From the NCBI GenBank assembly GCA_021292105.1, contig CM037862.1:31651245-31715244 (forward strand): a DNA stretch of 64,000 nt, given 5' to 3'. Source of the DNA: Anadara kagoshimensis. Taxonomy: Eukaryota; Mollusca; Bivalvia; Arcoida; Arcidae. The notes under the pieces are model-generated. The model was given only the letters and a program-made list of their open reading frames with translations. It had not been told where the DNA came from and searched no databases. Position numbers and translations under genes: made by a program. This document shows, one piece after another, positions 7,750 through 58,990 of this stretch (its first letter is position 1; each line of letters starts with the position of its first letter).

Positions 7750-8270
7750 ATGAGGCAGAATTGTGTGGAAATTATTTACCGTTATTTTGATCTATATTTC
7801 TCACACCAGTGACATGGAAATCCCTTGTTTTTACCTATGTGAGATTTCCTTGTCTCACTCTGGGTTGAGACAGATCACATAAACAATCTCCCGCATTAAT
7901 TGGATTTCTCTGACTTTTAAATTTGATTCTATGAAAAAATAAAGGGCATATTCCAGATGAGACACGATCACTTACGGACACTTAATTGATGACCTCATAA
8001 TCATTCTTGCATAAAATTAGATGATGTAATTTTCAGAAGGCACTGATGAAAACTGATAATTTCATGCAAATATTTGTTGTAAAATCATGTTTTTATGTTG
8101 CAATTCTGTGAGAAAAAGAATGCTACACCAGTAGCAGTGTAATACAGAGATATCGCAAACTCTGATGAATATTTTCCATGTCCAGAACTCAATAAAGCTA
8201 GTTCTGGAGAGGAAAATATTTATCCTCCTTTGAGATATCTTGGTCTTACACTGTTACCGGTGTAAGATTC
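7750..8270 (-). mobile_element. Composite non-autonomous repeat, palindromic tip plus R2 block (copy 1)
   Basis: Read in reverse complement it consists of a 153-bp palindromic tip (8118-8270), about 240 bp of linker, and a block containing GGGTTGAGACA/TGTCTCAACCC and GGAAATCCC/GGGATTTCC motifs (7800-7876). The same order and spacing occur on the plus strand at 32512-33020, including shared linker words such as CATCAATTAAGTGT. It therefore behaves as one repeat unit. No coding capacity; the mechanism is unknown. Confidence 0.65.
8118..8270. repeat. MITE-like palindrome (153 bp)
   Basis: One end is GAATGCTACACCAGTAGCAG and the other is CTGTTACCGGTGTAAGATTC, an imperfect inverted repeat extending inward through GAGATATC and AATATTT. 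The 32512-32664 palindrome has the same length and near-identical ends. Confidence 0.7.
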
Positions 8271-8830
8271 TATTTATCTCACTTTTCACACTGATGGAAC
8301 AGATTGCATCATCACCAAGAAATGTTGTTGAGCTTTCCTTATCCCTGTCTCACAATGTACAAGTCTGTAGATTTTTTAAATATATGAGATAAATGATGAA
8401 ATCAAAGATAAAAGAATAATGTTTTCAATAACTGCCTTTACTTCATATTCCATGTCTTTTACAAGCAGAGATCCCATTTATGCAGCACATTCAATCTCAA
8501 CCGTAGCCAGTTCTAATCCACTGTCAAGGTATCAACTATACATGTTACCTGATATGAAATGCATGTTGGAAACACTTCCTCACCTTAATCATATTAAGTG
8601 TGCACTACTTGAGAAGCATGTGTTGTGTCATGTCAACTCAGAAAGATAAAATTAAATAAACATGGAAAGATCTTAATGATATCAACATCGTTGTTCATTT
8701 CATATAGTTTTTTTATTTATTTTACTCTCTTTCATTTCTAACTTTTTTTTAATTTCTTTTCACTTTCCTTTCTTCAATCAAGAATCTCAGATTTTTTTTG
8801 GGTATGTTTCTTTTACATCAAATGGTTGAT

Positions 8831-10342: not shown

Positions 10343-11452
10343 CCTAAAACCTAGAGATTTATACTATAACTATTTAATTAGCTACTAATGTAGTGAGTCG
10401 TTGGGTACTGTAGTACTTTAGGAGGAGTTTCTGGCACCTTTGTTACAAGTGTTCAATTGTAATCAGCTCCATATCAAATATTTATGTAGCTGTAACATTC
10501 AGACAAAACTTACATTACTTAGTTTATGCTTACATATTATGTATTATCTTGATCCAAAATGCAATATTGTTGTTAGTATTGTCATAATTGGCTGTTGTGA
10601 TCTTTGTATATAAATGCACATCTAGAAAGACAATATGGTGAATAGGAAAACAGGTCACTCTGACCTACTTTCATCTATTTTTTAATATTAACTTACAAAA
10701 TTTAAAATCTTATTTTACATATATGAGTGATTTTTAAAACATAAATAATCTTTGGAATGGGCATATTACAATACAACTAGCAAACATATATATAATTATA
10801 TCATAGGGTGGGTAATTTGAGCAGGGTGTCCATTTTGGCATATTGATGGTTAAGAATTACCAAAATTAAAATCGCAAAATGATTAGAGAAAACTTAGTCA
10901 GTAGTGTTTTAAGAAGGAGATCAATAAGTAACCAGCCAATCTCATTTCCAATATATATATAATATGCAATATATATATATGTTTTGTTATTGTTTTTACT
11001 GGTATTATTTACACTAACTGACAACTGACTATTTAAGTATTGATATATTATGACTAAGACAAACCTTTTCTTTATAGGTTCTATATTTATGAGTAAACTC
11101 ATCATTTTCTTTAAATTATATTATTTCCCCTTATGTTTCTCTTGGATATAATAAAACAGAATTATGACCAACATTCTGTCACATCCAAGGTTCACCTAGA
11201 ATAAGGATACCATGTTTTATATGCCAGAGAGATCTATCAATGTCTTTTACGATGTGCTCGGTTTTGATATACATCAATTTTATTCTGATGACCGCTGTCA
11301 TTAATGTCCAAGGTGCATTTCAGAATATATTTGCACATGATCAATGTCAAAGGAAAGGGTTCTGAAAAATGAACTTAGAAGAATGTGGCATAAACATATT
11401 ATCAAAAGCTTTATTATCCCGGGTTTGATTGGAAATATTCATCTAGTAAACC
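10343..11452. other. Unique AT-rich non-coding DNA with short (AT)n
   Basis: Contains short AT runs near 10950-10980. Toward its right end it may hold decayed 5' parts of the neighbouring mariner copy, but I cannot read a transposase frame there. Confidence 0.45.
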
Positions 11453-11960
11453 ATGATTAAATGGTATATGACACAACCATCTGATGGCAAGGTGATGGTC
11501 ACAGTATTATGGAATGCAAAATGTGTTATTATGTTGAACTTTTTACCCAAGAGAAATACAATAACTGGAGTGTACTATACAAACTTGGTAGACCAGCTGA
11601 GAACCGCTATCTGTGAAAAATGCCAAGGTGTTTTGCTGCAACAGGACAACATGAGAGTCCTCACTTGCAAAGTTGCAATGGATGCTGTAGAGTAAAATGA
11701 GTATGAATTAATACCACATCCTGCCTGTTCACCTAACCTAGCTCCTATGACTTCTTCCTATTCCCAAAATTGAAAAATGAGATCCTTGGATGTGATTTTA
11801 GGTCTGAGGAAGAAGTTGTAAAGACAGTGGAGGATAGGATAAATGGAAAGGATCTTGACTTTTAAGTTCTGTGCTAATGGCACTTGAACACCGTTGGTCT
11901 AAGTACATCACACTATAGGGGAAATATAATCGAAAAACAAGAGGTGGATCTCAACCTGGA
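11453..11960 (+). pseudogene. Mariner-family transposase fragment, inactivated
   Basis: The C-terminal two-thirds of a mariner (Tc1/mariner superfamily) cut-and-paste transposase. In the first frame (11453-11695) the block GKVMVTVLWN is followed by 'VDQLRTAI' and QQDN, the second catalytic region. In known mariners the first catalytic Asp follows 'W' in the 'FWD' motif; here that position is Asn. A TAA ends the frame at 11693-11695. Beyond it the same frame gives NEYELIPHP and SPNLAP. A frameshift follows, after which 'DFFLFPKLK' and 'SEEEVVKTVED' are readable, then further stops before a 'KYNRKTR' tail near 11930. The N-terminal helix-turn-helix region is not recognisable. It is clearly a dead copy: lost catalytic residue, internal stops, frameshift and missing 5' end. 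Confidence 0.85.
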
Positions 11961-18380: not shown

Positions 18381-18756
18381 ATATCTGAAGTACGTTACTT
18401 ATTCAACATTACAGCGTTCAACATTGAATAAGTAAACAGTTACTTATTCAACATTTGCAAATATTTTCGTTTCATTTATAAAACACTCAATAAAACAAAT
18501 TTTATGACATTTCACGATTAAATGTCACTACCAAGTATGGTTACCCCCAGTGCCTCGGAACACATTGGCTTAAAGCTTCAATGTAAGCCCATACCATTAT
18601 ACAGTGAATTTCATATAGACGGAAAGTAAATTGCCCGAGCAAAGTGAAGCTTTCACTGTGCTGGGAATTTCGAAATATCATTTTGTACTACTATGCTTAG
18701 GCAATGTCACTACCAAGTATGGTTACCCCCAGTGCCTAGGAACACATTGGCTTAAA
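18381..18756. mobile_element. Inserted block with 54-bp direct repeats at one end
   Basis: This block separates the degenerate fringe from the main array. It holds an inverted repeat TTACTTATTCAA (18395-18406) / TTGAATAAGTAA (18424-18435). It also holds two direct copies of a 54-bp sequence beginning AATGTCACTACCAAGTATGG (18521-18574 and 18703-18756) that differ at one base. Between the two copies lies GCCCGAGCAAAGTGAAGC, resembling the loops of the hairpins at 20820 and 54937. Element type unknown. Confidence 0.45.
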
Positions 18757-20756
18757 TGTCTGATATCTCTAGTGATATGTGTATGTCTGATATCTCTAGT
18801 GTATGTCTGATATCTCTAGTGATATGTGTATGTCTGATATCTCTAGTGATATATGTTTATGTCCTATATCTCTAGTGATATATGTTTATGTCCTATATCT
18901 CTAGTGATATATGTTTATGTCCTGTATCTCTAGTGATATATGTGTATGTCTGATATCTCTAGTGATATATGTTTATGTCCTATATCTCTAGTGATATATG
19001 TTTATGTCCTATATCTCTAGTGATATATGTTTATGTCCTGTATCTCTAGTGATATATGTGTATGTCTGTATCTAGTGATATATGTGTATGTCTGATATCT
19101 CTAGTGATATATGTTTATGTCCATATCTCTAGTGATATATGTTATGTCCTATATCTCTAGTGATATGTGTATGTCTGATATCTCTAGTGATATATGTTTA
19201 TGTCCTATATCTCTAGTGATATATGTTTATGTCCTTTATCTCTAGTGATATATGTGTATGTACCTTATCTCTAGTGATATATGTGTATGTCTGGTATCTC
19301 TAGTGATATATGTGTATGTCTGATATCTCTAGTGATATATGTGTAAGTCTGATATCTCTAGTCATATATGTGTATGTCTGATATCTCTAGTCATATATGT
19401 GTATGTCTGATATCTCTAGTGATATATGTGTATGTCTGATATCTCTAGTGATATATGTGTATGTCTGATATCTCTACTGATATATGTGTATGTCTGATAT
19501 CTATAGTGATATATGTGTATGTCTGATATCTCTAGTGATATATGTGTATGTCTGGTATCTCTAGTGATATGTGTATGTCTGATATCTCTAGTGATATATG
19601 TTTATGTCCTATATCTCTAGTGATATATGTGTATGTCTGATATCTCTAGAAATATATGTGTATGTACCTTATCTCTAGTGATATATGTGTATGTCTGGTA
19701 TCTCTAGTGATATATGTGTATGTCTGATATCTCTAGTGATATATGTGTATGTCTGATATCTCTAGTGATATATGTGTATGTCTGATATCTCTACTGATAT
19801 ATGTGTATGTCTGATATCGATAGTGATATATGTATGTCTGATATCTCTAGTGATATATGTGTATGTCTGGTATCTCTAGTGATATGTGTATGTCTGATAT
19901 CTCTAGTGATATATGTGTTTGTTTGGTATCTCTAGTGATATATGTATGTCTGATATCTCTAGTGATATATGTATGTCTGGTATCTCTAGTGATATGTGTA
20001 TGTCTGATATCTCTAGTGATATATGTGTATGTCTGATATCTCTAGTGATATATGTGTATGTCTGATATCTCTAGTGATATATGTATGTCTGGTATCTCTA
20101 GTGATATATGTATGTCTGATATCTCTAGTGATATATGTTTATGTCTGGTATCTCTAGTGATATGTGTATGTCTGATATCACTAGTGATATATGTGTATGT
20201 CTGGTATCTCTAGTGATATGTGTATGTCTGATATCTCTAGTGATATATGTGTATGTCTGGTATCTCTAGTGATATGTGTATGTCTGATATCTCTAGTGAT
20301 ATATGTGTATGTCTGATATCTCTAGTCATATGTGTATGTCTGATATCTCTAGAGATATATGTGTATGTCTGATATCTCTAGTGATATGTGTATGTCTGAT
20401 ATCTCTAAGTGATATATGTGTATGTCCGGTATCTCTAGTGATATGTGTATGTCTATATCTCTAGTAATATGTGTATGTCTGGTATCTCTAGTGATATGTG
20501 TATGTCTGATATCTCTATAGTGATATGTGTATGTCTGATATCTCTAGTGATATATGTGTATGTCTGATATCTCTAGTGATATATGTGTATGTCTGATATC
20601 TCTAAGTGATATATGTGTATGTCTGATATCTCTAGTGATATATGTCTATGTCTGGTATCTCTAGTGATATATGGTATGTCTGGTATCTCTAGTGATATAT
20701 GTGTATGTCTGGTATCTCTAGTGATATATGTGTATGTCTGATATCTCTAGTGATAT
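18757..20756 (+). repeat. 27/29-bp minisatellite, left block
   Basis: Tandem copies of a unit readable as TATGTCTGATATCTCTAG plus TGATATATGTG (29 bp), with a common 27-bp version lacking one AT. Internal variants (GGTATCTC, CCTATATCTC, TTTATGTCC) are interspersed. There is no functional ORF; short open frames come from unit repetition. Confidence 0.95.
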
Positions 20757-21520
20757 TATTAGTTACACAGTCTGTTGGTGACCTAATATGGTTTATACAG
20801 GGTCAGTAAATTCCATATCGGGCGAGGGCGAAGCTCGAGCCCAGATATGGAATTTACTGACCCTGTATAAACCATATTAGGTCACCAACAGACTGTGTAA
20901 CGATTATATCCTACCGATCACACTGAAGACCCATGGTGGATACCTTTAAACAAACATACAGTACACGGATACGGATACGGAGACCAGAGACTGGAGAGAA
21001 GTCCAGGATGAGACACTGCTGTATGTTTTAGTAACCTATAGCTCCAAACAAACTTTTTATATATCATATTATGTCACTAAAACACTGTGTAACTTTTATA
21101 TCATACCGATCATATCAATAAATCATTTACAAAGCCAATTTGAATGTATCCACACAGCGACATGTGAATGGTGACTGAGTTAGAAATACCGTCGTTTGGC
21201 ATTCTGTCTGACAAAATATTGAAAATAATAATGAATTTGACTTACTAGCAGCTTTCGTCAAAGAAATCAATTGCACTTTTATCCTTGGATATCAAATATT
21301 TTGTTTCAATATCACAACACCTTTACTAGTGTCTGTATTTGCCGTAAATACTTGTGATAAATATGACGTGTTTACTACGAGGCGGGCGCCATTGACGTTG
21401 GTCAGGGGAAATAACTCTCATACTGACTGGATATGAACAGACCTGACCCGATATGGATTATATTAGGTCACCACGTGACCAGCATCGTCGAATGAAATTC
21501 ACAGAAACTAGTGAGAGGTA
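20757..21520. mobile_element. Insertion within the minisatellite, headed by a perfect long hairpin
   Basis: About 0.76 kb of non-satellite DNA interrupts the array, with GATAT at both junctions. The left end is a hairpin with perfect arms at 20762-20819 and 20844-20901. Diverged copies of the arm sequence recur downstream: at about 21065-21118 in direct orientation (TTATGTCACTAAAACACTGTGTAAC) in outline, and at 21440-21475 (GATATGGATTATATTAGGTCACC, in outline). It encodes no protein. The GATAT duplication is suggestive only, because the satellite itself is rich in GATAT. Confidence 0.7.
20762..20901. repeat. Perfect inverted repeat, 58-bp arms, 24-nt loop
   Basis: The left arm starts GTTACACAGTCTGTTGG and ends TTCCATATC. 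The right arm is its exact reverse complement over all 58 positions. The loop (20820-20843) is purine-rich and contains GGGCGAGGGCGAAGCTCGAG. Confidence 0.97.
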
Positions 21521-24500
21521 GGATATATGTGTATGTCTGGTATCTCTTGTGATATATGTTTATGTCCTTTATCTCTAGTGATATATGTTTATGTTTGGTA
21601 TCTCTAGTAATATGTGTATGTCTGATATCTCTTGTGATATATGTTTATGTCCTTTATCTCTAGTGATATATGTTTATGTTTGGTATCTCTAGTAATATGT
21701 GTATGTCTGATATCTCTAGTGATATATGTGTATGTCTGGTATCTCTAGTGATATATGTATGTCTGATATCTCTAGTGATATATGTGTATGTCTGGTATCT
21801 CTAGTGATATGTGTATGTCTGATATCTCTAGTGATATATGTTTATGTCTGATATCTCTAGTGATATATGTGTATGTCTGATATCTCTAGTCATATGTGTA
21901 TGTCTGATATCTCTAGTGATATATGTGTATGTCTGGTATCTCTAGTGATATGTGTATGTCTGATATCTCTAGTGATATGTGTATGTCTGATATCTCTAGT
22001 GATATATGTGTATGTCTGGTATCTCTAGTGATATGTGTATGTCTGATATCTCTAGTGATATATGTGTATGTCTGATATCTCTAGTCATATGTGTATGTCT
22101 GGTATCTCTAGTGATATGTGTATGTCTGATATCTCTAGTGATATATGTGTATGTCTGATATCTCTAGTGATATATGTTTATGTCTGATATCTCTAGTGAT
22201 ATATGTATGTCTGATATCTCTAGTGATATATGTGTATGTCTGGTATCTCTAGTGATATGTGTATGTCTGGTATCTCTAGTGATATGTGTATGTCTGATAT
22301 CTCTAGTGATATATGTGTATGTCTGATATCTCTAGTGATATGTGTATGTCTGATATCTCTAGTGATATATGTGTATGTCTGATATCTCTAGTCATATGTG
22401 TATGTCTGGTATCTCTAGTGATATGTGTATGTCTGATATCTCTAGTGATATATGTGTATGTCTGATATCTCTAGTGATATGTGTATGTCTGATATCTCTA
22501 GTGATATATGTGTATGTCTGATATCTCTAGTCATATGTGTATGTCTGATATCTCTAGTGATATATGTGTATGTCTGGTATCTCTAGTGATATATGTGTAT
22601 GTCTGATATCTCTAGTGATATATGTGTATGTCTGATATCTCTAGTGATATATGTGTATGTCTGATATCTCTAGTGATATGTGTATGTCTGGTATCTCTAG
22701 TGATATGTGTATGTCTGATATCTCTAGTGATATATGTGTATGTCTGGTATCTCTAGTGATATATGTTTATGTCTGATATCTCTAGTGATATATGTTTATG
22801 TCTGGTATCTCTAGTGATATATGTGTATGTCTGATATCTCTAGTAATATATGTGTATGTCTGATATCTCTAGTGATATGTGTATGTCTGGTATCTCTAGT
22901 GATATGTGTATGTCTGATATCTCTAGTGATATATGTGTATGTCTGGTATCTCTAGTGATATATGTTTATGTCTGGTATCTCTAGTGATATATGTGTATGT
23001 CTGATACCTCTAGTGATATATGTGTATGTCTGATATCTCTAGTGATATATGTTTATGTCTTATATCTCTAGTGATATATGTTTATGTCTGGTATCTCTAG
23101 TGATATATGTGTATGTCTGATACCTCTAGTGATATATGTGTATGTCTGATATCTCTAGTGATATATGTGTATGTCTGATATCTCTAGTGATATATGTGTA
23201 TGTTTGGTATCTCTAGTGATATATGTGTATGTCTGGTATCTCTAGTGATATATGTGTATGTCTGGTATCTCTAGTGATATATGTGTATGTCTGGTATCAC
23301 TAGTGATATATGTGTATGTCTGGTATCTCTAGTGATATGTGTATGTCTGATATCTCTAGAGATATATGTGTATGTCTGATAACTCTAGTGATATGTGTAT
23401 GTCTGATATCTCTAGTGATATATGTGTATGTCTGGTATCTCTAGTGATATGTGTATGTCTGATATCTCTAGTGATATATGTGTATGTCTGATATCTCTAG
23501 TCATATGTGTATGTCTGGTATCTCTAGTGATATGTGTATGTCTGATATCTCTAGTGATATGTGTATGTCTGATATCTCTAGTGATATATGTGTATGTCTG
23601 GTATCTCTAGTGATATGTGTATGTCTGATATCTCTAGTGATATATGTGTATGTCTGATATCTCAAGTGATATATGTGTTTGTCTGATATCTCTAGTGATA
23701 TATGTTTATGTCCTATATCTCTAGTGATATATGTTTATGTCTGATATCTCTAGTGATATATGTGTATGTCTGATATCTCTAGTGATATATGTGTATGTCT
23801 GGTATCTCTAGTGATATGTGTATGTCTGATATCTCTAGTGATATATGTATATGTCTGGTATCTCTAGTGATATGTGTATGTCTGGTATCTCTAGTGATAT
23901 GTGTATGTCTGATATCTCTAGTGATATATGTGTATGTCTGGTATCTCTTGTGATATATGTTTATGTCCTTTATCTCTAGTGAAATGTGTATGTCTGATAT
24001 CTCTAGTGATATATGTGTATGTCTGATATCTCTAGTGATATATGTGTATGTCTGATATCTCTAGTGATATATGTTTATGTCCTATATCTCTAGTGATATA
24101 TGTTTATGTCCTATATCTCTAGTGATATATGTGTATGTCTGAAATCTCTAGTGATATATGTGTATGTCTGATATCTCTAGTGATATATGTTTATGTCCTA
24201 TATCTCTAGTGATATATGTTTATGTCCTATATCTCTAGTGATATATGTTTATGTCCTTTATCTCTAGTGATATATGTGTATGTCTGATATCTCTAGTGAT
24301 ATATGTTTATGTCTGATATCTCTAGTGATATATGTTTATGTCTGATATCTCTAGTGATATATGTGTATGTCTGATATCTCTAGTGATATATGTGTATGTC
24401 TGATATCTCTAGTGATATATGTGTATGTCTGATATATTTAGTGATATATGTGTATGTCTGGTATCTCTAGTGATATATGTGTATGTCTGATATCTCTAAT

Positions 24501-25590
24501 GGTATGTGTATGTCTGATATCTCTAGTGATATATGTTTATGTCCTATATCTCTAGTGGTATATGTGGTATCTCTAGTGATATATGTTTGTGTCCTTTATC
24601 TCTAGTGATATATGTGTATGTCTGATATCTCTAGTGATATATGTTTATGTCTGATATCTCTAGTGATATATGTTTATGTCCTTTATCTCTAGTGATATAT
24701 GTTTATGTCACTTATCTCTAGTGATATATGTTTATGTCCTATATCTCTAGTGATATATGTTTATGTCCTTTATCTCTAGTGATATATGTGTATGTCTGAT
24801 ATCTCTAGTGATATATGTTTATGTCTGATATCTCTAGTGATATATGTTTATGTCCTTTATCTCTAGTGATATATGTTTATGTCACTTATCTCTAGTGATA
24901 TATGTTTATGTCCTATATCTCTAGTGATATATGTTTATGTCCTTTATCTCTAGTGATATATGTGTATGTCTCATATCTCTAGTGATATATGTTTATGTCT
25001 GATATCTCTAGTGATATATGTTTATGTCTGATATCTCTAGTGATATATGTTTATGTCCTGTATCTCTAGTGATATATGTGTATGTCTGGTATCTCTAGTG
25101 ATATGTGTATGTCTGATATCTCTAGTGATATATGTTTATGTCCTTTATCTCTAGTGATATATGTTTATGTCTGATATCTCTAGTGATATATGTTTATGTC
25201 TGATATCTCTAGTGATATATGTGTATGTCTGGTATCTCTAGTGATATATGTTTATGTCCTTTATCTCTAGTGATATATGTTTATGTCCTTTATCTCTAGT
25301 GATATATGTTTATGTCTGATATCTCTAGTGATATATGTTTATGTCCTTATCTCTAGTGATATATGTTTATGTCTGATATCTCTAGTGATATATGTTTATG
25401 TCTGATATCTCTAGTGATATATGTTTATGTCTGATATCTCTAGTGATATATGTTTATGTCTGATATCTCTAGTGATATATGTTTATGTCTGATATCTCTA
25501 GTATATGTTTATGTCTGATATCTCTAGTGATATATGTTTATGTCCTATATCTCTAGTATATATGTTTATGTCCTATATGTAATAATATAT
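21521..25590 (+). repeat. 27/29-bp minisatellite, right block
   Basis: The array continues with the same unit as at 18757-20756, so the 0.76-kb block is an insertion and not a boundary. Together the two blocks hold roughly 215 units. From about 24,000 onward the TTTATGTCC/CTTTATCTC variants predominate and longer multi-unit patterns repeat (for example near 24,600-24,750 and 24,780-24,950). Confidence 0.95.
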
Positions 25591-25675
25591 GTGTATGTCT
25601 GACATCATCTGTGATGTACCGGAGTATGTACATGTGTATGTTTCGATATTTCCTGTGGTATATGTGTGTGTGACA
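25591..25675 (+). repeat. Degenerate right fringe of the minisatellite
   Basis: Units such as GTCTGACATCATCTGTGATG and TTCGATATTTCCTGTGG are diverged monomers, closest to those in the left fringe. Confidence 0.55.
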
Positions 25676-32511: not shown

Positions 32512-33020
32512 GAATCCTACACCAGTAACAGGGTAAGACAGAGACATCTCAAACGAGGATGAATATTTTCCTGTCCTAAACAAGCTTTAGCGAGTTCTGG
32601 ACATTGAAAATATTCATCCGAGTTTCAGATATCTCTGTCTTACCCTGTTACTGGTGTAGGATTCTTTTCGCACAAATTTGCAGCATAAATATTTGTAAAC
32701 AAAAAATTGTATCAAATGTTCAGTTTTAATGTCACCATCCGTGCCTACTGAAAATGACGTAGTCAATTTTTGTTGATGTTCTCACATAAAATGACTATGA
32801 CATCATCAATTAAGTGTGTGTAAGTGATTGTGACGTTGAGAAATTGTTGGTTGACTTCGGAACTTTTCTCAACTTACTAAGTCCTCTCAACGATAAATTC
32901 AGAGCAGGTATAACTACGTGGGAAATTCAGTGTGTAGCCTGTCTCAACCCTAGGGTGAGACAAGGAAATCCCACATGGGTAAAAACAAGGGATTTCCATG
33001 TCACAGGTGTGAGAAAAGAT
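32512..33020 (+). mobile_element. Composite non-autonomous repeat, palindromic tip plus R2 block (copy 2)
   Basis: The 153-bp tip (32512-32664) begins GAATCCTACACCAGTAACAG and ends CTGTTACTGGTGTAGGATTC, an almost perfect inverted repeat continuing inward. About 270 bp further on is the R2 block (TGTCTCAACCCTAGGGTGAG at about 32939, GGGATTTCCATGTCAC at about 32989). The arrangement is the reverse complement of that at 7750-8270. Overlapping frames of 93 codons on both strands across the R2 block are not coding. Confidence 0.7.
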
Positions 33021-40384: not shown

Positions 40385-40772
40385 GTCATGTGCTGATTTT
40401 GAATTCATTATTTTAATGTGCATTACACTGGCACCTGTCCAATAATAATTTTGCATCAACTGTTTCAATTATTTTGCAATATCTAATGGCAATTAAAATC
40501 TATGTAAAAAATTGGCTTCATTTAACATTTAAATCTTAATCAAATAAAATTATTTTCCATGGGAAATATTTCTTCAAATTTGATACACAAGAGAAATCAG
40601 TGGTGTCATGTGCTGATTTTGAATTTTTTATTTAAATAATGCATTCAAAATCAGCACATGACAACTAGTTGGAAAATAATTTTATTTGATTAAGTTTTAA
40701 ATGTTAAATGAAGCCAATTTTTTACATAGATTTTAATTGCCATTAGATATTGCAAAATAATTGAAACAGTTG
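40385..40772. mobile_element. Near-perfect foldback element
   Basis: Arms at 40457-40559 and 40670-40772 are inverted 103-bp copies differing at about one position. Between them lies a second, perfect inverted repeat, GTCATGTGCTGATTTTGAAT (40605-40624) with its complement at 40643-40662. A third direct copy of that 20-mer lies outside the left arm at 40385. No ORF. The sequence GTGCATTACACTGGCACCTG just inside the third copy is repeated at about 39889, also outside the foldback. Confidence 0.9.
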
Positions 40773-40889
40773 AAATTGTACCCTAATAAAACAGATACTA
40801 GTGTATGATCTACAGTTTTGGACAATTCTAGGAATTTTTAAGAACATTTTTGCATATGTTTTTAATTTACGTTAATAGTCATTCCACTT

Positions 40890-45609: not shown

Positions 45610-46365
45610 CAGTAGAACTTTGATAACTCGAAGTGCATGGGACTTCGATGATGACTTCGAGTTATCGGGGTGTTTGAGTTTTCGAAGTTGAAGGATAACG
45701 TCACAATGTAGACTTTCATTTTAATGCAAGAAATGTTGGATGGATTCAAAGAACTGAATCAAAAACACATATTCATTTACATTGTATGTAATAATCATAA
45801 TTATTATAAGAATACATATGCAAGACAAGCGGCGCATTTATAGAAATTATAACATTAGTGTGCGTACTACGTCTTGGTCATTAAAATCAAGCTTGGATAA
45901 ATCACTTGAAAATTTGCTGTTATCGCCAGTGGCACAAACTTGGCTTCTACTAAGGGGGTACACGGTTACACTTCATCGCCTCTTATGGCACACAGTACTA
46001 ATCTTTTAATTGATACTAATTAATACAGTAGCAGTACCTTTGATGTGTACCACTACTCCTCTCATTAATCGGATTTATATGGAAGCCTAAAGCCCATGGC
46101 CGATTAATTTCTGTAATTTCACTGGTCGTTCTATTGATCACTCATTGTTAAATATTTCAAGTTTTAGAAGGTTGTTTGTTATACAATTTTTAATTTAGCA
46201 CCTTAACATTACTTCATGTTATCGGGGGTATTCGAGTTATAAGAGTTTGAGTTATCGAAGTTGTATTCATATAGTTTATATAGAAACCCGATCGGGACAA
46301 AATAATGACTTGGAGTTATCCGTGGTATTCGAGATATCGAAGTTCGAGTTATTGAAGTTCTACTG
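45610..46365. mobile_element. pogo/Tc1-like MITE, 756 bp
   Basis: Begins CAGTAGAACTTTGATAACTC and ends GAGTTATTGAAGTTCTACTG, with TA on each side (45608-45609 and 46366-46367). Several inverted and direct 'gagttatcga' or 'tcgaagt' sub-repeats sit near both ends (45630-45690 and 46218-46350), the subterminal repeat pattern of pogo-like elements. A 75-codon frame inside does not resemble a transposase, so the copy is non-autonomous. Confidence 0.8.
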
Positions 46366-48628: not shown

Positions 48629-51600
48629 TCTGCTATCATAGCTTAATTGTTAAGCTCCGTATAACTTTTAGCTACATATCACTATCATGTGACCAAGTGG
48701 TCTGCAATCATAGCTTCATTGTTTAGCTCTGTATCACTATCATGTGACCAAGTGGTCTGCAATCATAGCTTTATTGTTAAGCTCTGTATCACTATCATGT
48801 GACCAAGTGGTCTGCAATCATAGCTTAACTGTTTACCTCCATATCTCTATGATGTGACCAAGTGGTCTGCAATCATAGCTTTATTGTTTAGCTACATATC
48901 ACTATGATGTGACCAAGAAATCTGCAATCATAGCTTTATTGTTAAGCTCTGTATCACTATCATGTGACCAAGTGGTCTGCAATCATAGCTTAACTGTTTA
49001 GCGCCGTATCTGTATGATGTGACCAAGTGGTCTGCAATCATAGCTTTATTGTTTAGCTCTGTATCACTATCATGTGACCAAGTGGTCTGCAATCATAGCT
49101 TAACTGTTTACCTCCATATCTCTATGATGTGACCAAGTGGTCTGCAATCATAGCTTTATTGTTTAGCTCTGTATCACTATCATGTGACCAAGTGGTCTGC
49201 AATCATAGCTTAACTGTTTACCTCCATATCTCTATGATGTGACCAAGTGGTCTGCAATCATAGCTTTATTGTTTAGCTCTGTATCACTATCATGTGACCA
49301 AGTGGTCTGCAATCATAGCTTAACTGTTTACCTCCATATCTCTATGATGTGACCAAGTGGTCTGCAATCATAGCTTTATTGTTTAGCTCTGTATCACTAT
49401 CATGTGACCAAGTGGTCTGCAATCATAGCTTAACTGTTTACCTCCATATCTCTATGATGTGACCAAGTGGTCTGCAATCATAGCTTTATGTTTAGCTACA
49501 TATCACTATGATGTGACCAAGAAATCTGCAATCATAGCTTTATTGTTAAGCTCTGTATCACTATCATGTGACCAAGTGGTCTGCAATCATAGCTTAACTG
49601 TTTAGCTCCGTATCTGTATGATGTGACCAAGTGGTCTGCAATCATACCTTTATTGTTTAGCTCTGTATCACTTTCATGTGACCAAGTGGTCTGCAATCAT
49701 AGCTTAACTGTTTAGCTTCGTATCTCTATGATGTGACCAAGTGGTCTGCAATCATAGCTTTATTGTTTAGCTACATATCTCTATGATGTGACGAAGTGGT
49801 CTGCAATCATAGCTTAACTGTTTACCTCCATATCTCTATGATGTGACCAAGTGGTCTGCAATCATAGCTTTATTGTTTAGCTCTGTATCACTATCATGTG
49901 ACCAAGTGGTCTGCAATCATAGCTTAACTGTTTACCTCCATATCTCTATGATGTGACCAAGTGGTCTGCAATCATAGCTTTATTGTTTAGCTCTGTATCA
50001 CTATCATGTGACCAAGTGGTCTGCAATCATAGCTTAACTGTTTACCTCATATCTATGATGTGACCAAGTGGTCTGCAATCATAGCTTTATTGTTTAGCTC
50101 TGTATCACTATCATGTGACCAAGTGGTCTGCAATCATAGCTTAACTGTTTACCTCCATATCTCTATGATGTGACCAAGTGGTCTGCAATCATAGCTTATG
50201 TTTAGCTCTGTATCACTATCATGTGACCAAGTGGTCTGCAATCATAGCTTAACTGTTTACCTCCATATCTCTATGATGTGACCAAGTGGTCTGCAATCAT
50301 AGCTTTATTGTTTAGCTACATATCACTATGATGTGACCAAGAAATCTGCAATCATAGCTTTATTGTTAAGCTCTGTATCACTATCATGTGACCAAGTGGT
50401 CTGCAATCATAGCTTAACTGTTTAGCTCCGTATCTGTATGATGTGACCAAGTGGTCTGCAATCATACCTTTATTGTTTAGCTCTGTATCACTTTCATGTG
50501 ACCAAGTGGTCTGCAATCATAGCTTAACTGTTTAGCTCCGTATCTCTATGATGTGACCAAGTGGTCTGCAATCATAGCTTTATTGTTTAGCTACATATCT
50601 CTATGATGTGACGAAGTGGTCTGCAATAATAGCTTCATTGTTTAGCTCTGTATCACCATCATGTGACCAAATGGTCTGTAATCATAGCTTTATTGTTTAG
50701 CTCTGTAACACTATGATGTGACCAAGAAGTCTGCAATCATAGCTTTATTGTTTAGCTCTGTATCACTATCATGTGCAGTGGTCTGCAATCATAGCTTAAC
50801 TGTTTAGCTACGTATCTCTATGATGTGACCAAGTGGTCTGCAATCATAGCTTTATTGTTTAGCTCTGTATCACAATCATGTGACCAAGTGGTCTGCAATC
50901 ATAGCTTAACTGTTTAGCTACATATCTCTATGATGTGACCAAGTGGTCTGCAATCATAGCTTTATTGTTTAGCTCTGTATTACTATCATGTGACCAAGTG
51001 GTCTGCAATCATAGCTTTTTTGTTTAGCTCTGTATTACTATCATGTGACCAAGTGGTCTGCAATCATAGCTTTATTGTTTAGCTCTGTATCACTATCATG
51101 TGACCAAGTGGTCTGCAATCATACCTTAACTGTTTAGCTACATATCTCTATGATGTGACGAAGTGGTCTGCAATAATAGCTTCATTGTTTAGCTCTGTAT
51201 CACCATCATGTGACCAAATGGTCTGTAATCGTAGCTTTATTGTTTAGCTCTGTAACACTATGATGTGACCAAGAAGTCTGCAATCATAGCTTTATTGTTT
51301 AGCTCTGTATCACTATCATGTGACCAAGTGGTTTGCAATTATAGCTTAACTGTTTAGCTCCGTATCTCTATGATGTGACCAAGTGGTCTGCAATCATAGC
51401 TTTATTGTTTAGCTCTGTATCACTATCATGTGCAGTGGTCTGCAATTATAGCTTAACTGTTTAGCTATGTATCTCTATGAAGTGACCAAGTGGTCTGCAA
51501 TCATAGTTTTATTGTTTAGCTCTGTATCACTATCATGTGACCAAGTGTTCTGCAATCATAGCTTAACTGTTTAGCTACATATCTCTATGATGTGACCAAG

Positions 51601-54238
51601 TGGTCTGCAATCATAGCTTTATTGTTTAGCTCTGTATTACTATCATGTGACCAAGTGGTCTGCAATCATAGCTTTATTGTTTAGCTCTGTATTACTATCA
51701 TGTGACCAAGTGGTCTGCAATCATAGCTTTATTGTTTCGCTCTGTATTACTATCATGTGACCAAGTGGTCTGCAATCATAGCTTTATTGTTTAGCTCCGT
51801 ATCTCTATGATGTGACCAAGTGGTCTGCAATCATAGCTTTATTGTTTAGCTCTGTATCACTATCATGTGACCAAGTGGTCTGCAATCATAGCTTTATTGT
51901 TTCGCTCTGTATTACTATCATGTGACCAAGTGGTCTGCAATCATAGCTTTATTGTTTAGCTACATATCTCTATGATGTGACCAAGTGGTCTGCAATCATA
52001 GCTTATTGTTTAGCTCCGTATCTCTATGATGTGACCAAGTGGTCTGCAATCATAGCTTTATTGTTTAGCTCTGTATTACTATCATGTGACCAAGTGGTCT
52101 GCAATCATAGCTTTATTGTTTCGCTCTGTATTACTATCATGTGACCAAGTGGTCTGCAATCATAGCTTTATTGTTTAGCTCTGTATCACTATCATGTGAC
52201 CAAGTGGTCTGCAATCATAGCTTTATTGTTTCGCTCTGTATTACTATCATGTGACCAAGTGGTCTGCAATCATAGCTTTATTGTTTCGCTCTGTATTACT
52301 ATCATGTGACCAAGTGGTCTGCAATCATAGCTTTATTGTTTAGCTCTGTATCACTATCATGTGACCAAGTGGTCTGCAATCATAGCTTTATTGTTTAGCT
52401 CTGTATCACTATCATGTGACCAAGTGGTCTGCAATCATAGCTTAACTGTTTACCTCCATATCTCTATGATGTGACAAAGTGGTCTGCAATAATAGCTTCA
52501 TTGTTTAGCTCTGTATAAACATCATGTGACCAAGGAGTCTGCAATCATAGCTTTATTGTTTAGCTCTGTATCACTATCATGTGACCAAGTGGTTTGCAAT
52601 TATAGCTTAACTGTTTAGCTACATATCTCTATGATGTGACCAAGTGGTCTGCAATCATAGCTTTATTGTTTAGCTCTGTATCACTATCATGTGCAGTGGT
52701 CTGCAAATATAGCTTAACTGTTTAGCTACGTATCTCTATGATGTGATCAAGTGGTCTGCAATCATAGCTTTATTGTTTAGCTCTGTATTACTATCATGTG
52801 ACCAAGTGGTCTGCAATCATAGCTTTATTATTAAGCTACATATCACTATCATGTGACCAAGTGGTCTGCAATCATAGCTTTATTGTTTAGCTCTGTATCA
52901 CTATCATGTGACCAAGTGGTCTGCAATCATAGCTTAACTGTTTAGCTCTGTATCACTATCATGTGACCAAGTGGTCTGCAATCATAGCTTAACTGTTTAG
53001 CTCTGTATCTGTATGATGTGACCAAGTGGTCTGCAATCATAGCTTTATTGTTTACTCTGTATCACTATCATGTGACCAAGTGGTCTGCAATCATAGCTTA
53101 ACTGTTTAGCTCTGTATTTCTATGATGTGACCAAGTGGTCTGCAATCATAGCTTTATTGTTTAGCTCTGTATCACTATCATGTGACCAAGCGGTCTGCAA
53201 TCATAGCTTTATTGTTTAGCTCTGTATCTCTATGATGTGACCAAGTGGTCTGCAATCATAGCTTAACCGTTTAGCTCTGTATCTCTATGATGTGACCAAT
53301 TGGTCTGCAATCATAGCTTAACTGTTTAGCTCTGTATCACTATCATGTGACCAAGCAGTCTGCAATCATAACTTTATTGTTTAGCTCCGTATCTCTATGA
53401 TGTGACCAAGTGGTCTGCAATCATAGCTTTTTTGCTTAGCTCTGTATCACTATCATGTGACCAAGTGGTCTGCAATTATAGCTTTATTGTTTTCTCTGTA
53501 TCACTATGATGTGACCAAGTGGTCTGCAATCATAGCTTTATTGTTTACTTGTATCACTATGATGTGACCAAGCGGTCTGCAATCATAGCTTTATTGTTTA
53601 CTCTGTATCACTATGATGTGACCAAGTGGTCTGCAATCATAGCTTTATTGTTTACTTTGTATCACTATGATGTGACCAAGTGGTCTGCAATCATAGCTTT
53701 ATTGTTTACTCTGTATCACTATCATGTGACCAAGTGGTCTGCAATCATAGCTTAACTGTTTAGCTACATATCTCTATGATGTGACCAAGCGGTCTGCAAT
53801 CATAGCTTTATTGTTTACTCTGTATCACTATGATGTGACCAAGTGGTCTGCAATCATAGCTTTATTGTTTACTTTGTATCACTATGATGTGACCAAGCGG
53901 TCTGCAATCATAGCTTTATTGTTTACTCTGTATCACTATGATGTGACCAAGTGGTCTGCAATCATAGCTTTATTGTTTACTCTGTATCACTATGATGTGA
54001 CCAAGTGGTCTGCAATCATAGCTTTATTGTTTACTCTGTATCACTATCATGTGACCAAGTGGTCTGCAATCATAGCTTTATTGTTTAGCTCTGTATCACT
54101 ATGATGTGACCAAGCGGTCTGCAATCATAGCTTTACTGTTTAGCTCTGTATCACTATCATGTGACCAAGTGGTCTGCAATCATAGCTTAACTGTTTAGCT
54201 CTGTATCACTATCATGTGACAAAGTGGTCTGCAATCAT
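48629..54238. repeat. 55-bp satellite array with higher-order repeats (about 100 copies)
   Basis: The unit is about 55 bp and contains AATCATAGCTTTATTGTTTA, CTCTGTATCACTAT and CATGTGACCAAGTGGTCTGC. Two main variants (TTTATTG..CTCTGTATCACTATCATG and TTAACTG..CTCCATATCTCTATGATG) alternate over long stretches, giving 110-bp dimers. Larger duplications are visible: rare markers (ACCAAGAAATC at 48912, 49516 and 50336; GACGAAGTGG at 49790 and 50610) recur with an 820-bp offset. Each unit holds a GACCAAGTGGTC dyad next to CATGTG. A sub-block of 54-bp units at 53,480-54,100 stays open in frame only because 54 is divisible by three. Confidence 0.97.
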
Positions 54239-54872
54239 TGAAGTTTCAAATTTTTACAAGTAAAATGATAATTTATAATAATCTTATTTTTTGTCTATGA
54301 AAATTGTCAAATGGCTTTAATGTATTTAAATTCTAACCAATAAAATAATGATGATTTGATCAATTATTATCTCTCTTAGAAGAAATTGGGTTTTCAACTT
54401 GGGAACATTGTTGTGATATATTATGAAGCAAAGAAAAGAGGAACAAAGTAAGAAGATGCAACTGTATACTGGAATTCATTAGAATGGATAATTTAAACAT
54501 TGCCAAGAAAACAAATTGGAGACAGCTTTGAAAAAATCTCATAAAATCTTATGTTTTTATTTCTCATTTAAAGAAATTGAAAACAAATCTGAAGATTTTC
54601 AATCTATTGGTTCAATGCTTGTGTAAATGGAAAATATACCTTAAACTGTCCCAGTTTGCTTTTTATTGCATCAATCAGTGTTTTCTATTGGGGAATAGAA
54701 ATTTAAGAAACTTATTTTGCATCAAAAAGAGGTTTCACTATGACATTTAAATAAATTTGACGATCAATGCTTCAATGATTTTTGCAAATAGAAAATAGAT
54801 ATTTCTAAAAATGAAGTTCATCAGTGTGTCATGAAACCTAATACTCATGACACTGTTATATAGCCATATTTA
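54239..54872. other. Unique non-coding DNA between satellite and hairpin
   Basis: AT-rich, nothing recognised. Confidence 0.5.
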
Positions 54873-55015
54873 TACATTATTATGTGTTCCGGAGGGATCT
54901 GTGCTACTATAGTATTGTCTTGGGGAGTATAGTGCCCGAGTCGAAGGCAAAGGCACTATACTCCCCAAGACAATACTATAGTAGCACTGGTCCCGAAGGA
55001 AAACATAATAATGTA
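54873..55015. repeat. Long hairpin with perfect 36-bp inner arms
   Basis: Inner arms 54901-54936 (GTGCTACTATAGTATTGTCT...) and 54952-54987 are exact reverse complements. Outer arms continue imperfectly to 54873 (TACATTATTATGT) and 55015 (ACATAATAATGTA). The 15-nt loop is CGAGTCGAAGGCAAA, close to the loop of the hairpin at 20762-20901. A shorter inverted repeat, TAGTACATCACAT (about 55018-55030) with ATGTGATGTACTA (55298-55310), lies downstream, so the insertion may extend to about 55,311. Confidence 0.93.
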
Positions 55016-55316
55016 TTTAGTACATCACATGACACTTTAATGTACAGTGCAATATGTAGTGTACAATCTTGTCAGAAATGAATTTGTCTTGGTCCTCGTT
55101 GCCGAATCTTGACGCCATGTTTGTTTACAAAATTGCGTTCTCGTTCCCAAGGTGGCATGTGTAAAAAGTATCGTATCTGTCTGGAAAAACAATAGTACCT
55201 TGCTGTCAACAGTACTATACTTGTTGCTAAGGACAGACAGAAACTATACAAAATAGAGTATGTGTACATATCTAATCAATTTCCTACAATTTATAATGTG
55301 ATGTACTAATGTGTTT

Positions 55317-58300
55317 GTAGTGTTATATTGTTTGTGTAGAGTAATAATGCTTGTGTATAGATAAACAACTTTGACCTGTCCGCTTGACCTTCATTAGGAA
55401 TATTCATATAGGAGGATCCACCCAACATGGGTAGTGTTAATTTCCAAGTTAATACATACACAGTGCACAGGTGTACTCAAAGAGGTGAGTATATCTCATG
55501 ATATATACAATATAAATACCTGTGTTCCCTATTCATAGATGTACTTGGTCTATGAAAAATATTTGAATTAAAGGTCAAACAGACAGGTCAAAGTTGTTTA
55601 CTTATATAACACCAAAATGTTTGTGTAGAGTCATAATGCTTGTAAAGAGTCATTATGCTTGTTTATAGAGCCATTATTCTTGTTTATAGAGCCATGATGC
55701 TTGTTTATAGAGCCATTATGCTTGTTTATAGAGCCATGATGTTTGTTTATAGAGCCATAATGCTTGTGTATAGAGCCATTATGCTTGTTTATAGAGCCAT
55801 AATGCTTGTTTACAGAGCCATAATGCTTGTGTATAGAGCCATTATGCTTGTTTATAGAGCCATAATGCTTGTTTATAGTCATAATGCTTGTGTATAGAGC
55901 CATTATGCTTGTTTATAGAGCCATAATGCTTATGTATAGAGCCATTATGCTTGTTTATAGAGCCATGATGCTTGTTTATTAAGCCATAATTTATTGAGCC
56001 ATAATGCTTGTGTATAGAGCCATTATGCTTGTTTATAGAGCCATAATGCTTGTTTACAGAGCCATAATGCTTGTGTATAGAGCCATTGTGCTTGTTTATA
56101 GAGCCATAATGCTTGTTTATAGTCATAATGCTTGTGTATAGAGCCATAATGCTTGTTTATAGAGCCATAATGCTTGTGTATAGAGCCATTATGCTTGTTT
56201 ATAGAGCCATAATGCTTGTGAGCCATTATGCTTGTTTATAGAGCCATTATGCTTGTTTACAGAGCCATAATGCTTGTGTATAGAGCCATTATGCTTGTTT
56301 AGAGCCATTATGCTTGTTTATAGAGCCATAACACTTGTGTATAGAGCCATATTGCTTGTTGATAGAGCCATAATGCTTGTTTGTAAAGCCATAATGCTTG
56401 TTTAAAGAGACATTATGCTTGTTTATAGAGCCATAATGCTTGTGTATAGAGCCATAACACTTGTGTATAGAGCCATGGTGCTTGTAGAGCCATAACACTT
56501 GTGTATAGAGCCATGATGCTTGTTTATAGAGACATAATGCTTGTGTATAGAGCCATTATGCTTGTTTATAGAGCCATAATGCTTGTGAGCCATTATGCTT
56601 GTTTATAGAGCCATTATGCTTGTTTATAGAGCCATAACACTTGTGTATAGAGCCATATTGCTTGTTGATAGAGCCATAATGTTTGTTTGTAAAGCCATGA
56701 TGCTTGTTTATAGAGCCATTATGCTTGTTTATAGAGCCATGATGCTTGTTTAAAGAGCCATAATGCTTGTGTATAGAGCCATTATGCTTGTTTATAGAGC
56801 CATAATGCTTGTTTACAGAGCCATAATGCTTGTGTATAGAGCCATTATGCTTGTTTATAGAGCCATTATGCTTGTTTATAGTCATAATGCTTGTGTATAG
56901 AGCCATTATGCTTGTTTATAGAGCCATAATGCTTATGTATAGAGCCATTATGCTTGTTTATAGAGCCATAACACTTGTGTATAGAGCCATATTGCTTGTT
57001 GATAGAGCCATAATGCTTGTTTGTAAAGCCATAATGCTTGTTTAAAGAGACATTATGCTTGTTTATAGAGCCATAATGCTTGTGTATAGAGCCATGGTGC
57101 TTGTAGAGCCATAACACTTGTGTATAGAGCCCTGATGCTTGTTTATAGAGCCACAATGCTTGTGTATAGAGCCATTATGCTTGTTTATAGAGCCATAATG
57201 CTTGTGAGCCATTATGCTTGTTTATAGAGCTATTATGCTTGTTTATAGAGCCATAACACTTGTGTATAGAGCCATATTGCTTGTTGATAGAGCCATAATG
57301 CTTGTTTGTAAAGCCATAATGCTTGTTTATAGAGCCATTATGCTTGTTTATAGAGCTATGATGCTTGTTTATTGAGCCATAATGCTTGTTTATAGAGCCA
57401 TAATGCTTGTTTATAGAGCATAACACTTGTGTATAGAGCTATAATGCTTGATTATAGAGCCACAATGCTTGTGAATAGAGCTATTATGCTTATATATAGA
57501 GTCATAATGTTTGTGAGTCATAATGCTTGTGTATAGAGCCACAATGATTGTTTATAGAGCCTACAAGACTCATGTATAGAGCCATTATGCTTGTTAATAG
57601 AGACATAATGCTAGTGTATAGAGCCATAATGCTTGTATATAGAGTCACAATGCTTGTTTATAGAGCCTACAATGCTTGTTTATAGAGCCTACAATGCTTG
57701 TTTATAGAGCCTATAACACTTGTGTAAAGAGCCATAATGCTTGTTTATAGAGACAAAATGTTTGTGTAGAAACATAATGCTAGTGTATAAAGCCACAATG
57801 CTTGTATATAGAGTCACAATGCTTGTTTACAGAGCCACAATGCTTGTTTATAGAGCCAAAATGCTTGTTTATAGAGCCATGATGCATGTTTATAGAGCCA
57901 CAATGCTTGTTTATAGAGCCATGATGCTTGTTTATAGAGCCACAATGCTTATTTATTGATCCATACTGCTTGTTTATAGAGCCACAATGATTGTTTATAG
58001 AGTCATATTGCTTGTTTACAGAGCCACAATGCTTGCTTATTGGACCACAATGCTTGTTTATTGATCCATACTGCTTGTTTATAGAGCCATAATGCTTGTA
58101 TATAGAGTCATAATGCTTGTTTATTGGGCCACAATGCTTGTTAATTGATCCATATTGCTTGTATATAGAGTCATAATGCTTGTTAATTGATCCATATTGC
58201 TTGGATATAGAGTCATAATGCTTGTTTATTGGGCCGCACTGCTTATTTATTGATCCATATTGCTTGTATATAGAGTCATAATGCTTGTTTATTGGGCCAC

Positions 58301-58990
58301 AATGCTTGTTAATTGATCCATATTGCTTGTATATAGAGTCATAATGCTTGTTTATTGGGCCACAATGCTTGTTAATTGATCCATATTGCTTGTATATAGA
58401 GTCATAATGCTTGTTTATTGATCCATACTGCTTGTTTATAGAGTCATAATGCTTGTTTATAGAGTCATAATGCTTGTTTATTGATTCATTATGCTTGTGT
58501 ATAGAGTCATAATGCTTGTTTATTGATCCATGCTGCTTGTTTATAGAGTCATAATGCTTGTTTATAGAGTCATAATGCTTGTTTATAGAGTCATAATGCT
58601 TGTTTATAGAGTCATAATGCTTGTTTATAGTCATAATGCTTGTTTATTGATCCATTATGCTTGTGTATAGAGTCATAATGCTTGTTTATTGATCCATTAT
58701 GCTTGTGTATAGAGTCATAATGCTTGTATATAGAGTCATAATGCTTGTTTATTGATCCATACTGCTTGTTATAGAGTCATAATGCTTGTATATAGAGTCA
58801 CAATGCTTGTTTATTGAGACATTATGCTTGTGTATAGACATTATGCTTGTGTATAGACATTATGCTTGTGTATAGTTGTTATGCTTGTGTATAGAGCCAT
58901 AATACTTGTTTAGAGCCATAATGATTGTGTAGAGCTATACAATTGTAGAGACATACTACTTGTATAGAGTCATAATGCTTGTGTACAGCC
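55317..58990. repeat. 21-bp minisatellite array (about 160 copies)
   Basis: The unit is ATGCTTGTTTATAGAGCCAT plus one base (21 bp), with variants TTATTGATCCATA, GTGTATAGAG and TAACACTTG. The 21-bp period is a whole number of codons and neither strand has a stop in one frame. Long heptad-repeat frames therefore run across the array on both strands; the longest, on the minus strand, spans 57780-58634. Unit deletions shift the frame repeatedly. The right end (58,830-58,990) is degenerate. A MITE interrupts the left end. Confidence 0.95.
55362..55600. mobile_element. Small MITE inside the left edge of the 21-bp array
   Basis: TIRs TAAACAACTTTGACCTGTC (from 55362) and GACAGGTCAAAGTTGTTTA (to 55600) match over about 30 bp with two or three differences. 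TA at each end would be the target site. Array-type sequence (GTAGAGTAATAATGCTTGTG) lies to its left at 55337-55356, so it inserted into an existing array. Confidence 0.75.

Follow-up and report, generated by a model that had tools for sequence, protein, structure and literature searches.

Long hairpins with a shared structural apex in repeat families of Anadara kagoshimensis, probably one end of non-autonomous Helitron-like elements

The DNA analysed here, called the window, is a stretch of 64,000 nt from Anadara kagoshimensis (assembly GCA_021292105.1, contig CM037862.1) with a GC content of 31.5% and a CpG observed/expected ratio of 0.30. It contains two long hairpins with related tips, each belonging to a dispersed element in which no open reading frame of at least 100 aa was found. 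Searches outside the window covered the 1,115,223,567 bases and 36 contigs of the genome, in which the window lies on contig C6. Satellite arrays occupy positions 18799-25615 (29-bp unit), 48677-54238 (55 bp) and 55626-58928 (21 bp), and a remnant of a mariner-type transposase lies at 11450-11695 (PF01359, E = 1.3e-11). The features are, in window coordinates:

20757 to 21525, minus strand (the hairpin being taken as the 3' end): non-autonomous mobile element of the 20757 (I2) family, about 765 bp long and lying within the array of 29-bp satellite units, delimited from copies with both ends read
20757 to 20819, plus strand: left arm of its hairpin, perfectly paired over 20762-20819; all 20 fetched copies, with that of the window among them, have the same 58-bp arm
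20820 to 20843, plus strand: apex GGG-CGAG-GG-CGAAG-CT-CGAG-CCC with a bulged A, from DNA folding; CC replaces CT in the consensus (19 of 20 copies)
20844 to 20906, plus strand: right arm, perfectly paired over 20844-20901, with identical arms in the fetched copies
20904 to 20921, plus strand: subterminal inverted repeat TTATATCCTACCGATCAC, just inside the hairpin, 15/18 against the reverse complement at 21511-21528
21511 to 21528, minus strand: partner repeat at the far end (15/18), its last 3 bases outside the element as drawn
54867 to 55309, minus strand (the hairpin again taken as the 3' end): non-autonomous mobile element of the 54872 (I3) family, hairpin at the left and far end at the right, delimited by similarity of the tails and differing flanks
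54872 to 54936, plus strand: left arm of its terminal hairpin, 87-100% identical over 40 scored places
54937 to 54951, plus strand: apex CGAG-T-CGAAG-G-CAAA; family consensus TGAG-C-CGAAG-G-CGAA (consensus of 24 and of 40 copies)
54952 to 55016, plus strand: right arm, from pairing with the left arm and the consensus
54891 to 54894, plus strand: left half of a second tandem G-A motif in the stem, GGAG here and TGAG in the consensus (TTCC-TGAG-GGACC)
54994 to 54997, plus strand: right half of this second motif, CGAA (consensus GGTCC-CGAA-GGAA)
55016 to 55032, plus strand: subterminal inverted repeat TTTAGTACATCACATGA, just inside the hairpin, of which TTAGTACATCACAT matches the reverse complement at 55296-55309 in 14/14 positions
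55296 to 55309, minus strand: partner repeat at the far end of the element, 14/14 to TTAGTACATCACAT
18610 to 18690, plus strand: short imperfect hairpin with the motif in its stem (DNA fold), not a member

Perfect-stem, short-loop hairpins in the window were counted with a stem of at least 14 bp and a loop of at most 60 nt, excluding low-complexity arms. Five were found, the longest two being those at 20757 (58 pairs) and 54872 (36 pairs). A hairpin with perfect inner arms, reported at 54873-55015 in an earlier note on this DNA, indeed exists: at 54872-55016, arms of 65 nt with 91% complementarity enclose a loop of 15 nt, and the inner 36 bp are without mismatch. Folded as single-stranded DNA it reaches -59.9 kcal/mol (z = -18.8). 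The hairpin at 20757-20906 has arms of 66 nt (95% complementarity, 58 bp without mismatch) and a loop of 18 nt, and positions 20758-20905 fold with -74.1 kcal/mol (z = -26.1). For both, none of 200 shuffles was as stable.

The related tip that had been placed at 20821-20838 is confirmed at 20820-20843. The motif CGAG-N1-3-CGAAG occurs twice in the window, both times inside these two loops, against a Markov expectation of 0.03, and shuffled versions of the two loops match it 330 and 166 times per 200,000. A form with a 4-base gap lies at 46330, with no long hairpin around it. Plain alignment of one loop with the other was not significant (score reached by 629 of 5000 shuffles), which leaves the motif and, most of all, the whole-genome data to carry the case. 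ViennaRNA energies of the bare tips and their complements were no better than those of shuffles, 119, 44, 112 and 34 of 200 of which folded at least equally well. A third, weaker member had been proposed at 18631-18650; its motif is part of the stem of a short imperfect hairpin with a loop of 3 nt, so this site is not of the same kind. Direct repeats of 54 bp, 98% identical, lie on either side of it (18521-18574 and 18703-18756). Phage relatives were also considered and dropped, the search giving a single 30-nt match with E = 2.

Both hairpins belong to mobile families. For the 20757 family, the genome contains 631 candidate places, and the hairpins of the 40 that were scored are all 99-100% identical. 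The flanks differ among the 20 fetched copies, of which 18 had both ends readable. In all 18, an A precedes the element, and one variable base (A in 15) and then a T follow it, giving the ends A/TATCC ... CTAATA(N)/T, where slashes mark the element borders. At the window copy, if the variable base is assigned to the element, the two satellite sides join into an intact unit with nothing duplicated; another reading of GATAT on both sides of the insert is a 5-bp duplication. The apparent lack of a target-site duplication in this family is drawn from the 18-copy end table and this one satellite site. Head-to-tail copies occur at L812 and at L831/L832, which are one pair seen from both sides. A partial second copy of the right hairpin arm, crossing the outer end of the arm, lies at 21058-21112.

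The 143-bp hairpin of the 54872 family gave 398 candidate places in the genome. All 40 scored places, the window included, were read with their flanks; the left flanks differ except in about six pairs (such as L758/L759 and L782/L783), which probably arose by segmental duplication. Five of eight loci have TTTA/TACATTATTATG at the left end. Of the 39 other copies, 37 remain similar to the right of the hairpin, and where enough sequence was read the similarity runs to about 55309. The hairpin therefore marks one end of an element of about 480 bp. The window copy lacks about 65 bp at 55051 compared with other copies. Where the outer stem has a cluster of mismatches, the consensus shows the TGAG/CGAA step a second time. 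Single copies are decayed: five tested strings are kept in 26 (the stem motif TTTCC[TC]GAGGG), 11 (exact GGTCCCGAAGGAAA), 16, 15 and 5 (the full apex string CTGAGCCGAAGGCGAAG) of the 40 copies. Compensatory changes in the arms, looked for by eye rather than counted, were not evident in the consensus copies. At one locus, L774 (G000:C2:31674776-31675208), part of the hairpin is repeated every ~46 bp, apparently a short tandem array born from a hairpin arm. The earlier proposal that arms are copied from the insertion context is contradicted by these families: the same arms are found in dispersed copies with different flanks, so the arms are a property of the family.

The consensus tips of both families fit one rule, [C/T]GAG-Y-CGAAG-Y'-CGA[G/A], with Y and Y' complementary, which corresponds to tandem G-A steps, a short stem Y:Y' and a C(GAA)G triloop. 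The consensus of 24 copies of the 54872 family is GTGCC-TGAG-C-CGAAG-G-CGAA-GGCAC. That of the 20757 family, GGG-CGAG-GG-CGAAG-CC-CGAG-CCC, is present in 19 of 20 fetched copies, the sole exception being the window copy with one change; the family consensus apices therefore match the rule better than the window copies do. The complementary-Y rule was formulated, and bacterial genomes were searched with the GG/CC string, before the copies of the 20757 family were read. DNA folding of the 20757 hairpin predicts a GA/GA internal loop and a GAA triloop; in the fold of the decayed 54872 tip of the window, the loop stays open. The geometry of tandem G-A pairs is general knowledge; the 'loop' of both families can better be drawn as a helix that continues via G-A steps into a GAA triloop. 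Of the earlier description, a similar purine-rich CGAG..GAAG loop on different arms, one tip across families stands, but the loop itself is better read as a continued helix, and what is conserved as structure (the complementary Y:Y') rather than as a literal string. The closest known structure is the GNA-triloop mini-hairpin d(GCGAAGC), reported as unusually stable (Tm 78 C) and nuclease resistant (PMC4686876). Like the apex here it has a C(GAA)G core and G-C closing pairs; unlike it, the apex here caps long genomic palindromes, after tandem G-A steps. Our literature search found no work linking the motif to hairpins or mobile elements and no description of this apex rule, which is not proof of absence.

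Enrichment of the loop motif among long hairpins had been proposed as a check. As a pattern count with a reversed-pattern control, rather than a clustering of all long hairpins, CGAG-N1-3-CGAAG-N1-3-CGAG gave 1426 matches in the genome versus 21 for the reversed pattern. Among 100 matches listed, Y:Y' was exactly complementary in 86, namely CGC/GCG in 41, GG/CC in 30, G/C in 11, GCG/CGC in 3 and CAC/GTG in 1. Thirty places were cut out of the genome matches; L831 and L832 overlap, so that 32 matches were seen. Four places belong to the 20757 family, three to a family called beta and three to a family called gamma2. The other 20 (L815, L817, L819-L827 and others) are a dispersed repeat that contains CGAGCGCCGAAGGCGCGAG and is without long arms, with CGC/GCG in 18 places and a decayed Y' in two. 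The enrichment is thus found in the count, but two thirds of the places read (20 of 30) lack long arms, and the enrichment is one of repeat families.

Four long-armed families carry the rule: 54872, 20757, beta and gamma2. The three beta loci have arms of about 63 nt; in L816 and L835, inspection by eye also shows a second CGAG/CGAG step within the stem. At the three gamma2 places read, one has arms of about 62 nt and two are without the left arm. With 1576 candidates in the genome and 98-100% identity in the 40 scored, gamma2 is by its sequences a large and young family. The arms of beta and gamma2 align with a score of 17 that none of 300 shuffles reached, and those of 20757 align more weakly, their scores being reached by 3 of 300 shuffles against gamma2 and 14 of 300 against beta. 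For 54872 against the other three families, 274, 99 and 280 of 300 shuffles reached the score. Judged by these alignments, the four long-armed families are not all independent. The 54872 arms, which the earlier note called unrelated in sequence, resemble none of the others. As the arms of beta and gamma2 are alignable, part of the arm difference is due to divergence; arms may also have been exchanged, as the earlier note had it. Inverted repeats placed asymmetrically occur in the 20757 family (15/18), the 54872 family (14/14) and beta locus L835 (TTTTATTATACCGATTGT, 15/18), and no good match to a partner repeat was found in gamma2 L828 and beta L816. The subterminal repeats of the 20757, beta and gamma2 families look related by eye.

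The apex also occurs outside this genome. In IMG/VR and GTDB, we scored how far the flanks (X) of a fixed apex are complementary among the matches listed, after removing duplicates and those at most 12 bases from the end of a locus. Among 105 distinct IMG/VR matches listed for the GA/GNA apex, 12 had X ≥ 3 versus 2.1 expected, and 6 had X ≥ 4 versus 0.6. With AG in place of GA as a control (93 distinct matches listed), 3 had X ≥ 3 versus 1.9 expected and none X ≥ 4, and with the control core C(ANG)G (105 distinct matches listed), 2 had X ≥ 3 versus 1.9 and 2 had X ≥ 4 versus 0.5; the GC content of the controls is slightly higher (0.63 and 0.62 versus 0.58 for the GA/GNA apex). Loci from the control patterns contained no GA/G.A apex with X ≥ 4, smaller X being listed in part. 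Raw Y:Y' complementarity in fixed-gap scans of IMG/VR was weak among the matches listed (35 of 120 versus 32.0 expected, and 17 of 115 versus 8.8). A 14-kb stretch of one IMG/VR contig (L002) contains five apex hairpins with different X arms. Among 102 distinct GTDB matches listed for the GG/CC apex, 16 had X ≥ 3 versus 3.6 expected, and 12 of these 16, with gtcat[c/t]c upstream in common, probably represent a single bacterial repeat. These counts support the apex as a real hairpin tip outside animals, which does not imply a common function. A palindrome of the form gtcatcc-[CGAGGGCGAAGCCCGAG]-gga was seen in bacterial loci L290, L291, L305, L310, L341, L347, L358, L370, L372 and L379, and the records with it are titled Proteobacteria (or genera thereof) and Clostridia.

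What was observed in the mollusc genome is a set of mobile families that each keep their own arms and follow one apex rule with different complementary Y, together with asymmetric inverted repeats in three families and, in the 20757 family, A and T flanks and head-to-tail copies. We consider it fairly probable that each hairpin forms one end of a non-autonomous, high-copy Helitron-like element whose apex is read at the terminator, HINEs and Helitron2 being the nearest described kinds. Helitron-type elements are present in this genome, with 104 matches to the Helitron Rep domain, and open frames with this domain reach 2619 aa. Sixteen of these matches lie in frames of exactly 2529 aa (for example at C1:30605426, C3:23489653 and C9:35085497), probably a recent autonomous Helitron family.

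According to the sections of the literature on HINEs and Helentrons (DINE-1-like elements and Cg_HINE of oyster) that bear on this comparison, HINEs are non-coding and have subterminal inverted repeats placed asymmetrically with a palindrome outside one of them; the palindromes, at the 3' end, are short (5-10 bp in mite families), and Helentrons insert at TT with no target-site duplication (PMC4067079, PMC7492417). The elements here share the non-coding sequence, the asymmetric subterminal repeats, the palindrome outside a repeat and the tandem copies; one repeat at the plain end and one inside the palindrome were found in 20757, 54872 and beta L835. For Helentron families, a rule of 11 identical bp is given (PMC4067079); the 54872 repeats reach this length and those of 20757 have about 10 within the element. 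The differences are a palindrome of about 145-150 nt, one structural apex across families, and an A before and a T at +2 of the 20757 insertions instead of TT; in addition, neither of the two elements in the window showed a tandem-repeat core. Because the palindrome is so large and HINEs target TT, we call the elements Helitron-like and do not file them as HINEs. Helitron2, as characterized in PMC4067079, has asymmetrical terminal inverted repeats and palindromes as well, but with palindromes at both ends, where one large palindrome is found here.

With the Helitrons Helraiser and HelibatN, the elements share a terminal hairpin and, in the 20757 family, insertion between A and T; a dependence on loop over stem is known from experiment with Helraiser. 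The Helraiser hairpin has 19 bp, lies near the 3' end, 11 nt from it, and is a transposition terminator; replacing the stem while keeping the loop (StemX) left about 90% activity, and changing the loop (LoopX) was as bad as deletion (PMC4778049). Helraiser, as presented there, differs in the size of its palindrome and in being without inverted repeats. The ends of the 20757 family also depart from the canonical Helitron form A/TC ... CTRR/T without inverted repeats.

By analogy with Helraiser, the following model is suggested. Each element lacks a long reading frame and has a subterminal inverted repeat at one end, with the partner repeat just inside the palindrome (~145-150 nt) of the opposite end; it would be mobilized by a Rep/helicase transposase supplied in trans, which would begin at the plain end and halt at the hairpin end. 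There the element strand would fold, and the hairpin would act as the transposition terminator. The apex, with its GAA triloop closed by C-G, variable stem Y:Y' and tandem G-A step, may be the recognised part, and the arms would serve as an exchangeable stem. One caution applies to the model: if the hairpin is the 3' end, the GAA form is not on the presumed top strand but on its complement. Also weighing against the Helitron-like reading are the A and T target of the 20757 family in place of TT, the decayed 54872 apices, the pattern places without long arms, the lack of a partner repeat in gamma2 L828 and beta L816, the 54872 arms without evident compensatory changes and the weak Y:Y' complementarity in IMG/VR.

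Other readings of the same data have to be weighed. The families could be palindromic cut-and-paste MITEs that have terminal inverted repeats and target a TA-like site, with an apex that no transposase reads. The left end TTTA/TACATT of the 54872 family (5 of 8 loci) and its right end ACTAAATA resemble TA-flanked ends, the mariner remnant shows that DDE elements occur in the window, and the GATAT on both sides of the 20757 insert would suit a 5-bp duplication. Such a duplication fits few 20757 copies, however, and the inverted repeats are asymmetric, with one inside the hairpin; the constant 5' TAT of the 20757 family, its variable 3' flank and its head-to-tail copies also speak against MITEs, which we regard as unlikely. 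To the same degree unlikely is that the apex is shared by inheritance alone, an unselected remnant of a common ancestor whose arms have drifted apart. It would account for the alignable arms of beta and gamma2, the weaker alignments of 20757 with both and the related look of the subterminal repeats in these three families, but hardly for a Y that differs between families and is complementary nonetheless, for 54872 arms that resemble no other family, or for the tandem G-A motif repeated in the stem of the 54872 consensus.

That the hairpin works as RNA, as a terminator or small-RNA precursor with the apex as its tip, seems improbable. T-runs follow prokaryotic and viral apex hairpins in 4 of 73 cases with X ≥ 3, 4 of 33 with X = 2 and 4 of 234 with X ≤ 1, leaving most without one; 3 of the 73 have the T-run on the other strand, and no Rfam family matched the window at gathering scores. 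A terminator function of the prokaryotic apex hairpins was itself dropped for the small number of T-runs. Still less credible is a foldback or template switch in which each hairpin arose as an inverted duplication of local sequence. Polymerase theta can extend self-paired ends (PMC11292364), and the partial second copy of the 20757 right arm would agree with this origin; for individual insertions it is refuted by the dispersed families, with the same arms at many sites and different flanks, and it could explain only the birth of an ancestral element. A chance likeness of two GC-rich loops, with which the non-significant plain alignment would agree, is refuted by the whole-genome counts and the family consensus sequences and is given next to no weight.

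The Helitron-like reading would require a source of transposase. Two long-frame Rep loci (L857-L860; 2529 and 2611 aa) were read from at or just before the ORF on and contained no apex and no matching repeat; in one of them, the ORF is followed by an ordinary hairpin of 12 bp. Another 12 Rep loci (L845-L856), with little flank covered, likewise gave no apex or repeat match, and the long Rep loci share only weak matches of 17-28 nt with the window elements (E of 9e-4 or worse). An autonomous partner with these ends was thus not found among the 14 Rep loci read, whose upstream ends lie outside the stretches.

To our knowledge, what the Helitron transposase reads at the terminal hairpin is not settled. 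Helraiser is one engineered element; here, evolution appears to have tested something alike, across families with different arms in one genome. The arms are inherited with each family, and the tip stands at the ends of high-copy, probably Helitron-like elements. The apex rule is testable, accounts for the shared tip on different arms and offers a handle for annotating such elements. As a more tentative extension, which we hold possible though less than even, the tip may be coded by structure: terminal hairpins would be modular, with exchangeable arms and a conserved non-canonical apex that the transposase or some host factor reads on one strand, and, as the same apex caps natural bacterial and viral hairpins, it could be a general device for making a hairpin strand-specific.

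The window holds some further hairpin-like sequence. At 8031-8051, TTTC-AGAA-GGCAC-TGAT-GAAA fits a generalised G-A/GNA tip and is the sole further hit in the window, a fit that may be due to chance. Two copies of another palindromic repeat, 84% identical and on opposite strands, lie at 8107-8281 and 32512-32664 with loops of 33-35 nt, and an inverted repeat at 40456-40773 has arms of 104 nt that are 99% complementary, with 110 nt between them.
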